A stretch of 64,000 bases of DNA, from NCBI GenBank assembly GCA_030431255.1, contig JAUIJL010000001.1, forward strand, positions 806,001-870,000, given 5' to 3'. A program made the position numbers and the translations under genes. This stretch comes from Thermoanaerobaculia bacterium. GTDB lineage: Bacteria > Acidobacteriota > Thermoanaerobaculia > Multivoradales > J023. Below are positions 18,069 through 20,741 of this stretch, piece by piece (position 1 is the stretch's first letter; each line of letters begins with the position of its first letter). A model generated the notes under the pieces. It made no database searches. It was not told the DNA's origin and worked only from the letters and a program-made list of their open reading frames with translations.

Positions 18069-18121
18069 ATCGGTCGGCAGGAAAGTGCTAGCATCGCGGC
18101 AACCGTTTCGAGGAGGAATGG

Positions 18122-18796
18122 ATGTCTGCTGTGTATGGTCCTGTTGAGCATGCGGTTCGTTCGCAAATCTATAAGTGCTTCGTCGACACAGGGCAAGCGC
18201 CGACTGTAGAAGAGGTCGCGGCTGCCGTAGGTCTCGATGAAGAAGAAGTCGGCAGCGTGTTGGAATCTTTGAATGAGCTGCACGCCATCGTCCTCAAGCG
18301 GGGGACGCGGCAGATCGAGCGGGCCTTGCCGTTTTCAGCCCTACCGACCTCCCACCTAGCTCGGGTCGGCGGCCGCCAATATTGGGCAAATTGTGCCTGG
18401 GACGCATTGGGCATTCCGGCGGCCCTCAACGCCGACGGCGAAATCCGGTCCGATGGTTTTGCGGGCGGAGATACGGTTCACCTGGAGATTCGTGACGGCA
18501 GGGCTTTGGGTGATCCGATTTATATGGGTTTTGTCGTGCCGGCTCGACAGTGGTGGCATGACATCGGCTTCACGTGAAGCACCATCCTGTTCTTCAGGTC
18601 GGAAGAACACGTGGAACGGTGGGAATCGGAAACACAGCTGACAGTGGGAGCTTTGCTGCCCCTGAACCGGGCTTGGGAGCTTGCACGCATCTGGTACCAC
18701 GACCGTATGAGCCCCGATTGGCGCCCCAAGGTTCGTCCAGAGCTGCAAGGCCGTTTGACTTGGGTCGGCCTGATGTCGGAATTCTGGCAGCTCTGA
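18122..18796 (+). CDS. MerB (organomercurial/alkylmercury lyase)-family protein, candidate selenoprotein with in-frame TGA at 18575-18577
   Basis: Read through one TGA, this frame gives 224 residues homologous end to end with MerB-type lyases. The N-terminal winged-helix-like region (residues 1-60) is followed by the catalytic segment YWANCAWDALGIPA, where Cys91 and Asp94 match MerB Cys96 and Asp99. The motif WWHDIGFT-[UGA]-STILFFRSEEHVERW then follows. The UGA (position 152) stands where MerB has its second catalytic cysteine, Cys159. The final 72 residues after the TGA keep the frame. A SECIS-like hairpin follows the TGA (separate entry). A strong SD (GAGGAGG) precedes ATG 18122, and a TAGCAT -10-like box is at 18089-18094. 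It follows nadC by about 50 nt. In the absence of Sec insertion the product would stop at 151 residues without the second catalytic position. MerB cleaves carbon-mercury bonds; no other mer gene is nearby, so the substrate could differ. Confidence 0.85.
18575..18609 (+). promoter_or_regulatory. Bacterial SECIS-like element (UGA codon plus hairpin)
   Basis: After TGA 18575-18577 there are 10 nt, then a perfect 8-bp stem: TGTTCTTC (18588-18595) pairs with GAAGAACA (18602-18609). The 6-nt loop is AGGTCG (18596-18601). GGUC in the apical loop starts 19 nt after the UGA, close to the E. coli fdhF SECIS, where GGUCU starts 18 nt after it. This is the geometry SelB recognises in bacteria. Confidence 0.8.
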
Positions 18797-18894: not shown

Positions 18895-19920
18895 ATGGAA
18901 ATTCCCACTTCGTACGCCGAGCCGCGTCGTATCGCGGTCGCCGCATTCCCGGGTTGTCAAAGTCTGGATGTCTTGGGGCCGCTGGAAATTTTTTCCACGG
19001 CCGACGCCCTACGTTTGTATCGCGATCCCGAGGCCCGGCCTCTTTTTCAAGTAGAGGTGTTGGGGCCCTCGGCCGGTCCCTTGCGCACCTCTTCCGGCTT
19101 GACCTTGGTTGCTGATCGAGGATTTGCCGAGGTGGAGGCGCCCGACGCGCCGAAGGTCGATACGTTGTTGGTGGCGGGCGGCAATCTCAAATCGGCCCTA
19201 CGCAATAAAGAATGGGTGGATTGGCTGCGACGACAAGAGCCCCGTGTGCGGCGAATGGGAGCCGTGTGCACGGGGTCGTTCATGTTGGCCGAAGCCGGCA
19301 TATTGAACGGACGCCGGGCGACCACCCACTGGGCGGCTGCGGATCATTTCGATCGCAAATATTCCGAGGTAGAGGTCGAGCGCGATGCGATCTACGTGGC
19401 GGATGGGGTGTATACCTCTGCCGGAGTGACCGCCGGCATGGATTTGGCCCTCAGCTTGTTGGAGCAAGATATCGGCCGTGAGGCGGCGCTCGAGGTCGCC
19501 CGATACCTGGTGATTTTTCTCAAAAGGGCCGGTGGCCAAAGCCAATTCTCCGGCCGTCTAGCCGCCCAAGCCGCCCAGCCGCCGAGCTCCTGGGATCGGC
19601 TTCTCACCTGGATCGCCGATCACCCTGATGAAAACCTCACCGTAGAAGCCCTGGCGGCCCGAGTCCACTTGAGCCCGCGGCATTTCTCCCGGCTCTTTTC
19701 CCGGCAGCTGGGGACGACTCCGGCGAAGTGGGTGGAGAAGACCCGGATCGACCATGCCCGGGGTCTCTTGGAAGAGCTGCCCGAGCTCTCCCTGGACGAG
19801 GTGGCCCGCCGGTGCGGGCTGTCGGAGTCTGGAGTCTTGAGAAGGCTGTTCATCCGCCACCTCGGAGTGACCCCCGGCGAATACCGTCGCCGATTCTCCG
19901 CGCCCGGCGCTACGGCTTAG
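18895..19920 (+). CDS. GlxA-family transcriptional regulator (DJ-1/PfpI domain plus AraC HTH)
   Basis: A 341-residue two-domain regulator. Residues of roughly 10-190 are a DJ-1/PfpI-like ligand domain with the nucleophile-elbow motif AVCTGSFMLAEAG and THWAAADHF. Residues of about 230-335 form an AraC-type double helix-turn-helix (VEALAARVHLSPRHFSRLF and SLDEVARRCGLSESGVLRRL). It is expected to sense a small molecule and activate or repress nearby genes. Candidates are the DJ-1-family gene just downstream and the MerB-like gene upstream. Confidence 0.88.
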   Translation: MEIPTSYAEPRRIAVAAFPGCQSLDVLGPLEIFSTADALRLYRDPEARPLFQVEVLGPSAGPLRTSSGLTLVADRGFAEVEAPDAPKVDTLLVAGGNLKSALRNKEWVDWLRRQEPRVRRMGAVCTGSFMLAEAGILNGRRATTHWAAADHFDRKYSEVEVERDAIYVADGVYTSAGVTAGMDLALSLLEQDIGREAALEVARYLVIFLKRAGGQSQFSGRLAAQAAQPPSSWDRLLTWIADHPDENLTVEALAARVHLSPRHFSRLFSRQLGTTPAKWVEKTRIDHARGLLEELPELSLDEVARRCGLSESGVLRRLFIRHLGVTPGEYRRRFSAPGATA

Positions 19921-20096
19921 TTTGCTTCCTCCGAATCGAGGTCCTCGCTCTGCGTGTCCGAAAAAGCTCGTTAGTGGTCATTGCTGACGAACTGGTGGGT
20001 TGTTAGCTTGAACAAAAGGGGACCCCTTCGGCTTGAAGCCGGATCTTCTTGATCCCCCCAAGCGATCCACAACCATCGGGACTGGAGGAGCATCAG

Positions 20097-20741
20097 ATGC
20101 AGATCGCCTTTTTGTTGTATGAGCAATTCACCGCCTTGGACATTGTCGGGCCCTACGAGCTTCTGCGCCAGCTGCCCGGCGCCGAGTCGATTTTCGTGGC
20201 CAAACAAACCGGTCCCGTGAAGAACGACGGCGGGCACTTGCACCTGGTGGCCGAGGCGACTCTGGCCGAGGTGCCGTCACCGGATGTGCTGGTGGTGGGC
20301 GGTGGCATGCAGGGCACTTTGGCGACGGCAAATGATCCGCAGGTCTTGGATTGGATCCGGAGCGTGCACGCCCAAAGCCGGTTTACCACCTCAGTGTGCA
20401 CCGGCTCGTTGATCCTCGCCGCCGCGGGTTTGTTGGCGGGAAAACCGGCGGCTTGCCATTGGGCAGCCAAGGACATGCTCGAGAAAATGGGGACCCACTA
20501 CAGCGGAGAGCGCTACGTTCGCGAGGGCAAGATCGTTACCGCGGCGGGTGTGTCGGCGGGCATGGATATGGCGCTCTATTTGATCGGAGAGCTGGCCGGA
20601 CGAAAGGCCGCGGAAATGATTCAGCTGAGCGCGGAATACGATCCCGATCCGCCGTTCGACAGCGGCAGCATCAAAAAAGCCGCGCCGGCCACCGTGGAGG
20701 CGGTCCTGGCGCGGCTGGGACGCGAGATCGCCGAGGGCTGA
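20097..20741 (+). CDS. DJ-1/PfpI family protein (isonitrile-hydratase-like)
   Basis: With ATG 20097, preceded by GGAGGAG, the product is 214 residues consisting of one DJ-1/PfpI domain. The elbow motif TSVCTGSLILAAAGLL holds the reactive cysteine, followed by HWAAKDML and the conserved TAAGVSAGMDMAL. The family includes isonitrile hydratase (InhA) and the ligand domains of GlxA regulators. It probably acts on, or binds, a small electrophile or nitrile-like compound. It lies downstream of the GlxA-type gene on the same strand with about 175 nt between. The longer frame from 20049 lacks an RBS. Confidence 0.8.
   Translation: MQIAFLLYEQFTALDIVGPYELLRQLPGAESIFVAKQTGPVKNDGGHLHLVAEATLAEVPSPDVLVVGGGMQGTLATANDPQVLDWIRSVHAQSRFTTSVCTGSLILAAAGLLAGKPAACHWAAKDMLEKMGTHYSGERYVREGKIVTAAGVSAGMDMALYLIGELAGRKAAEMIQLSAEYDPDPPFDSGSIKKAAPATVEAVLARLGREIAEG

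Follow-up and report, generated by a model that had tools for sequence, protein, structure and literature searches.

A MerB-family protein of a Thermoanaerobaculia bacterium with a predicted selenocysteine at the second catalytic position

The window, which is the whole stretch of 64,000 nucleotides analysed here, contains a gene for a protein of the MerB (organomercurial lyase) family, interrupted by a single in-frame UGA (Table 1). The UGA corresponds to the second catalytic cysteine of MerB, and it is almost certainly decoded as selenocysteine (Sec), although this rests on sequence comparison without any experiment. The protein is a member of a real and widespread family with the MerB fold and one Sec at the second catalytic position. 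The gene, its homology, the conservation of the UGA, the hairpin behind it, the Sec machinery and the fold of the predicted protein were all computed. The statement as a whole, a MerB-family selenoprotein working by the mechanism proposed below, is favoured without being firm, and its activity and substrate are inferred.

Table 1. Positions of the Sec-MerB gene and its elements in the window.
Feature	Position	Strand	Remarks
Sec-MerB gene	18122..18796	+	224-residue MerB-family protein; single UGA (putative Sec152) read through; TGA stop
Inner UGA, inferred selenocysteine codon	18575..18577	+	Cys159 column of MerB
Cys91 codon	18392..18394	+	Equivalent of MerB Cys96
Asp94 codon	18401..18403	+	Equivalent of MerB Asp99
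GAGGAGGA, likely ribosome-binding site	18110..18117	+	Read off the sequence, 5' of the ATG at 18122
SECIS-like hairpin	18588..18609	+	8-bp stem 18588-18595/18602-18609; loop AGGUCG 18596-18601
C-terminal extension, residues 193-224	18698..18793	+	Lies past the Pfam domain; some conservation in the family (..DWRR....GL.G.FW)

The first-pass annotation of this DNA described a MerB-like frame split by one TGA and open for 72 codons beyond it. Both statements are confirmed. The frame begins with ATG and ends with TGA at 18794-18796, and the inner TGA is preceded by 151 codons and followed by 72. The open frame after the TGA is by itself no evidence, because 72 codons would stay open by chance with a probability of about 0.11 at the window's 62% G+C, and because a mechanical count finds 39 open stretches in it that bridge a TGA and have at least 120 + 70 codons. 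The candidate stands above chance because the homology spans the TGA and the TGA is conserved in relatives. In the whole window, Rfam gives no match at gathering scores, no tRNA genes were found, and a promoter scan found nothing. One terminator-like site was found, at chance level.

A search against PF03243 had been named in the same annotation as a check, and the read-through product passes it with 100.5 bits, where the gathering cut-off is 27 bits. The match covers residues 71-192 and thus spans the TGA, since position 152 lies inside. Based on the phmmer alignments, Cys91 and Asp94 pair with Cys96 and Asp99 of MerB, and residue 152 pairs with the second catalytic cysteine of both MerB2 (5c17; E 3.6e-14) and MerB (3f2g; weak, E 0.0024). 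These are the correspondences originally claimed from the letters alone. Of the MerB catalytic set, Cys96 and Asp99 are therefore met, and Cys159 is not, UGA being there instead. The structural Cys117 is not met either. The phmmer alignment places Gly112 there, a point absent from the first-pass annotation, and many relatives do have Cys near this place in the alignment of relatives. The cut-offs of the NCBIfam MerB models are not reached (53.9 of 193 bits for NF009710 and 48.6 of 200 bits for NF033555).

The AlphaFold model of the protein, made with an alignment of 50 relatives as input, has a mean pLDDT of 94.4. Its best resemblances in the PDB are MerB2 (5c17, Z 18.4) and MerB (3f2f_B, Z 14.7), and the first non-MerB row has 5.8. 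The likeness to MerB and MerB2 (PF03243; PDB 3f0o, 5c17) lies in the fold, the Cys-x-x-Asp motif and the second catalytic position. In contrast to them, the window protein has Sec for Cys159, carries a C-terminal extension, lacks Cys117, and is encoded without a mer operon seen around it. The identity is 19-27% in structure alignments. The N-terminal part weakly resembles the helix-turn-helix domains of sigma factors, TrmB, LexA and MntR. It can be speculated from this that there are two products, the shorter one being a truncated form of 151 residues made under selenium shortage, with its own role such as DNA binding or metal sensing by an N-terminal winged helix. There is only a slim chance of this, considering that the canonical MerB structure match covers the same N-terminal part and that the 72 downstream codons are conserved across phyla.

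In a search of 148 genomes of the window genome's class, the protein is matched in 27. The column of the inner TGA contains TGA in 22 of them and Cys in four, and the remaining one is a stray match. Among the 22 TGA genomes, 20 have full-length matches, and the matches of the other two are at contig ends. When public genomes were scanned with the alignment, 229 relatives were detected. The best 80 of them were analysed; these partly overlap the genomes of the class search. TGA is seen at the column in 79 of the best 80, and TGC in the other one (L124). The matched regions of all 80 are free of further in-frame stops. The equivalent of Cys91 is kept in all 80 and that of Asp94 in 79, L124 having Cys there.

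According to the NCBI taxonomy, the best 80 relatives span nine named phyla: Chloroflexota (28, including L124), Acidobacteriota (18), Actinomycetota (13), Gemmatimonadota (10), Thermomicrobiota (2), Fidelibacterota (2), Planctomycetota (2), Myxococcota (1) and Calditrichota (1), with three unplaced. Single placements may be wrong, because nearly all these genomes are metagenome-assembled. The first-pass expectation of UGA or Cys at this column in homologues was fulfilled wherever the column could be aligned. A single-protein query of genome contigs (48 stretches) and a single scan of viral contigs (7 stretches) found no relative.

The protein downstream of the TGA is also conserved across phyla. 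This bears on the suspicion that the gene is a pseudogene or contains a sequencing error, with a Cys codon TGC or TGT mutated or misread as TGA. Annotation would call a gene with an in-frame TGA broken, and raw-read evidence is lacking. However, the same TGA in 79 of the best 80 loci comes from other genome records, which makes a sequencing error very unlikely. In the 396 Acidobacteriota genomes (the window genome included), 31 PF03243 matches exceed the cut-off; 14 of them have one TGA, five have two and 12 have none, and neither TAA nor TAG is seen in any. These counts do not imply that the TGA lies at the catalytic column in every row. One of the two rows below the cut-off has three TGA and a TAG. 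With the hairpin and the frozen codons described next, a broken or misread gene is hardly conceivable, and it was rejected on the conserved TGA, the conserved downstream protein and the hairpin.

The hairpin of the window has a minimum free energy of -17 kcal/mol (z -2.0), and three of 200 shuffled sequences fold as low. Among 94 distinct copies from the family, the commonest form is CTCTTCC-GGTC-GGAAGAG. At least 81 copies carry GGTC at the loop, and nine lack it throughout the stretch. The codons here are strongly restricted relative to the rest of the same genes: the Arg codon at +7 is CGG in 88 of the 94 copies (0.264 elsewhere), the Ser codon at +8 is TCG in all 85 Ser codons (0.332 elsewhere), and the Glu codon at +9 is GAA in 75 of 92 Glu codons (0.343 elsewhere). 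The pair +15:+28 is CG in 77 copies, GC in seven, TA in four and AT in two, and is unpaired in four. The pair +16:+27 is TA in 77, TG in 13 and CG in four. Outer pairs are weaker, with +13:+30 paired in 71 of 94 and +12:+31 in 23 of 94. The stems have 3 to 9 contiguous pairs with a mean of 5.76, whereas 300 synonymous shuffles give a mean stem of 4.56 +- 0.16 with a maximum of 5.03. The mean hairpin energy is -9.3 kcal/mol, against -5.8 kcal/mol in the 300 shuffles. Related sequences are not independent in these statistics, yet the copies span phyla. The hairpin is thus conserved in its nucleotides, as the compensatory base changes and the heavily skewed codon choice show.

In the five Cys forms, the stems have two pairs in L026, one in L039, five in L040, nine in L041 and four in L124. 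Only L041 folds strongly (-14.7), and GGTC is absent from all five in the bases printed. A hairpin with the same GGUC loop is found in the selD gene of the window genome, two bases closer to its UGA. The criterion that a selenoprotein gene should have a SECIS hairpin just past the UGA is met by sequence and covariation, without functional data.

All four genes of the Sec machinery, selA, selB, selC and selD, are present in the window genome, as the first-pass reading of a selenoprotein had required. The scores are 72.7 bits for tRNA-Sec (anticodon tca), 358.7 bits for SelB, 458.7 bits for SelA and 359.6 bits for SelD. Together with the TGA or Cys column in homologues, this supports that reading. 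SelD itself contains an in-frame TGA (..CGUAAKL..) and is a selenoprotein candidate (L129; C48:70921-71844, minus strand), with the GGUC hairpin 3' of its UGA. The window gene and genome show nothing unusual compared with the bacterial Sec system of the selD or formate dehydrogenase type: SelA, SelB, SelD, tRNA-Sec and a hairpin right after the UGA are shared. The frame would also stay open if an altered genetic code or general read-through put Trp or some other standard amino acid at the UGA. This reading was rejected and deserves practically no credence, as the gene's own final stop is TGA, the aligned column of relatives contains only Cys or UGA, and the Sec machinery is complete.

In the class, tRNA-Sec is matched in 138 of 148 genomes at E 1e-8, with nine weak matches (best E 1.3e-9 to 9e-9). 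Of the 22 class genomes with UGA, G088 has no tRNA-Sec match and G117 a weak one. Fifty genomes, 49 with UGA and one with Cys, were reached through the loci and chosen to spread over groups. They have a tRNA-Sec match in 42 cases, one of them weak (49.4 bits). Eight of the 49 with UGA yielded no match; many of the assemblies are drafts. The sole Cys genome has a match. Among 14 control genomes, five exceed the cut-off for tRNA-Sec, two for SelB, two for SelD and one for SelA. Weak tRNA-Sec matches may thus be false, since five of 14 controls pass. The four Cys genomes of the class are also matched, G015 weakly. Sec and Cys forms cannot be told apart by whether tRNA-Sec is present.

Sec-containing relatives of MerB are not wholly new. 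The first-pass annotation named no described Sec form of MerB, but a Sec-containing relative has already been published: SaoL, a MerB-like selenoprotein of the SAO system (NF040728, motif CU; Haft and Gwadz 2023), appears in a 2026 review (PMC13188914). In a 2022 review (PMC9312934), the same accession, WP_238493467.1, is entered as an alkylmercury lyase MerB-like selenoprotein. SaoL is likewise MerB-like with one Sec, and its profile matches the window protein weakly. In SaoL, Cys precedes Sec (CU), whereas in the window protein Thr directly precedes it. Because the score is 50.5 bits and the cut-off of NF040728 is 140, the window protein was not filed as SaoL. The SaoL cut-off is passed by none of 400 genomes searched in the phylum to which G498 belongs (Chloroflexota by its record title). 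As judged by these profile scores and alignments, the window protein belongs to a widespread family separate from SaoL.

Besides these review entries (PMC13188914, PMC9312934), no Sec MerB in print is found among the matches listed, nor is any paper on the single-Sec family; subscription papers for the most part, and preprints wholly, lay outside the search. The word MerB is absent from the main texts of PMC2398784 and PMC5029168, and from the available portion of the main text of the 2025 deep-Sep paper (PMC12013277). A table of PMC13188914 gives Sec also for a putative mercuric transport protein, HgcA and HgcB. A GDCCVxC (seleno)protein is annotated beside merB in L183. All of these represent mercury biochemistry with Sec or capable of Sec, but they belong to other families.

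Based on the fold and the residues, the following mechanism can be proposed. The ribosome would read the inner UGA as Sec through SelB, tRNA-Sec and the hairpin. The MerB-like fold would place Cys91, Asp94 and Sec152 at the positions of Cys96, Asp99 and Cys159. An organometallic substrate, probably R-Hg+, would be held between Cys91 and the Sec selenolate, Asp94 would help deliver the proton cleaving the metal-carbon bond, and Hg2+ would then be handed to cell thiols. A selenolate is a stronger mercury ligand than a thiolate and is more acidic. It could speed the attack on R-Hg+, or it could act as a trap. In MerB, according to PMC4525700, Hg2+ is held after cleavage by Cys96, Cys159 and Asp99 and is removed by outside thiols; the computational study there gives loss of Cys159 by protonation as one feasible first step. 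Organomercurial lyase activity of the window protein is a reasonable expectation, inferred from the fold and residues only. Protonolysis and mercury as the substrate are likewise inferences, somewhat favoured.

The window gene follows nadA, a probable nadB and nadC. Two adjoining DJ-1/PfpI genes are located downstream (18895-19920 and 20049-20741), the first of which is fused to an AraC-type DNA-binding domain. Queries of MerT, MerP-like proteins and MerA give no match in the ORFs of at least 90 aa of 56 neighbourhoods, i.e., 55 of the best 80 loci and the window; merR was not queried, and the 75-aa GDCCVxC protein is outside this ORF size. No MerA exceeds the cut-off in the window genome (best 376.4 of 454.45 bits). 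The surroundings thus do not look like a classical mer operon, and a stand-alone demethylase passing Hg2+ to cell thiols fits better.

In eleven Chloroflexota loci (L085, L100, L102, L103, L105, L107, L112, L114, L120, L121 and L127), the Sec-MerB gene is located between rpsB-tsf and an amino-acid-kinase gene resembling pyrH. One representative of each neighbour gene was checked with Pfam. This is the sole large set of shared neighbours in the 55 loci and the window.

These neighbourhoods leave possible, if clearly second in rank, a MerB-fold selenoprotein that is no organomercurial lyase and instead binds another metal through Sec and Cys, cleaves another organo-metalloid, or works in redox chemistry or metal sensing. 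The missing mer-like neighbours, the rpsB-tsf and pyrH-like surroundings and the nad genes before the window gene are compatible with this, and very strong binding between Hg and Se could, by inference, trap the product of a lyase. On the other hand, 79 of the best 80 loci retain the equivalents of Cys91 and Asp94 alongside Sec, and the Z of 18.4 to MerB2 speaks for a lyase. If the lyase reading is right, the chemistry is testable: what is the role of a selenolate in an enzyme acting on a metal with so high an affinity for selenium, and is the product still released?

MerB is the bacterial enzyme that splits methylmercury, and merB genes commonly serve as a measure of its degradation in the environment. 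Routine gene prediction would probably truncate Sec-MerB at the UGA. The same change from Cys to Sec is seen in many phyla, and therefore a large group of such proteins is probably missed by mercury-gene surveys and by automatic annotation. A 2026 ocean survey drops merB sequences lacking Cys-96, Asp-99, Cys-117 or Cys-159 (PMC12874090). By such rules Sec-MerB proteins would be discarded, since Cys-159 is among the residues required. If the Sec forms are active, the demethylation potential is undercounted in Acidobacteriota, Chloroflexota, Gemmatimonadota and Actinomycetota.

Another MerB-like group contains TGA at both catalytic columns. It was seen in two loci of the class search, L046 and L047, with the motifs AAU-x-x-DA at Cys96 and ..DDFU-x-KSVFFWSEE at Cys159. 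The L046 protein (L046:1318-2076) matches PF03243 with 60.2 bits. Further loci come from the 396 Acidobacteriota genomes, and four more from the 400 genomes searched for SaoL. Based on profile alignment, Sec-Asp-Sec is read in 13 loci in all: L046, L047, L131-L136, L148, L167, L170, L176 and the divergent L177. Extra stops in L136 (TAA) and L148 (a third TGA) are at the C-terminal end. In 13 of 14 loci checked, TTCTTCTGGTCAGAAGAA comes after the second TGA, and in 12 of 13 a CCTTCGTGCAAGG-type hairpin comes after the first; L177 is the exception in both cases. In the double-Sec hairpin, Trp TGG replaces Arg CGG and the GGTC loop is kept. At the level of the compared loci, the protein changes here and the RNA does not. 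No neighbours shared by double-Sec genes were found in 10 stretches at E 1e-6.

A tree built from 88 sequences places the main double-Sec group (12 of the 13 loci), itself on a long branch, beside plasmid-type MerB (98/95) and outside the single-Sec family. L177 is a very long branch inside the single-Sec family, and its second hairpin is of the single-Sec type. Sec was probably gained more than once, because the double-Sec group stands apart from the single-Sec family and L177 lies inside the latter. L177 possibly represents an independent gain of the first Sec. We lean slightly toward the view that MerB chemistry moved to selenium repeatedly, in the single-Sec family of nine named phyla and in a separate double-Sec family where both mercury ligands would be selenolates, as hidden demethylases or diselenolate metal-binding enzymes unseen by annotation and merB surveys.

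The catalytic columns of 53 loci are Cys-Asp-Cys in 14, Cys-Asp-Sec in 15, Sec-Asp-Sec in 13 and Cys-Cys-Cys in five, and six are not fully aligned. L178 represents another MerB-like group; its UGA occupies the second Cys column, within SHLUSRI, and its hairpin lacks the GGUC loop. L160 and L173 are grouped with it by the motif TWCALDAVGIP, and the column is not aligned there. A Cys-x-x-Cys variant (CAWC or CMWC) is seen in L039, L040, L041, L124 and L182. It has Cys for Asp99 and Cys at the Cys159 column, and forms one clade (100/100) in the tree.
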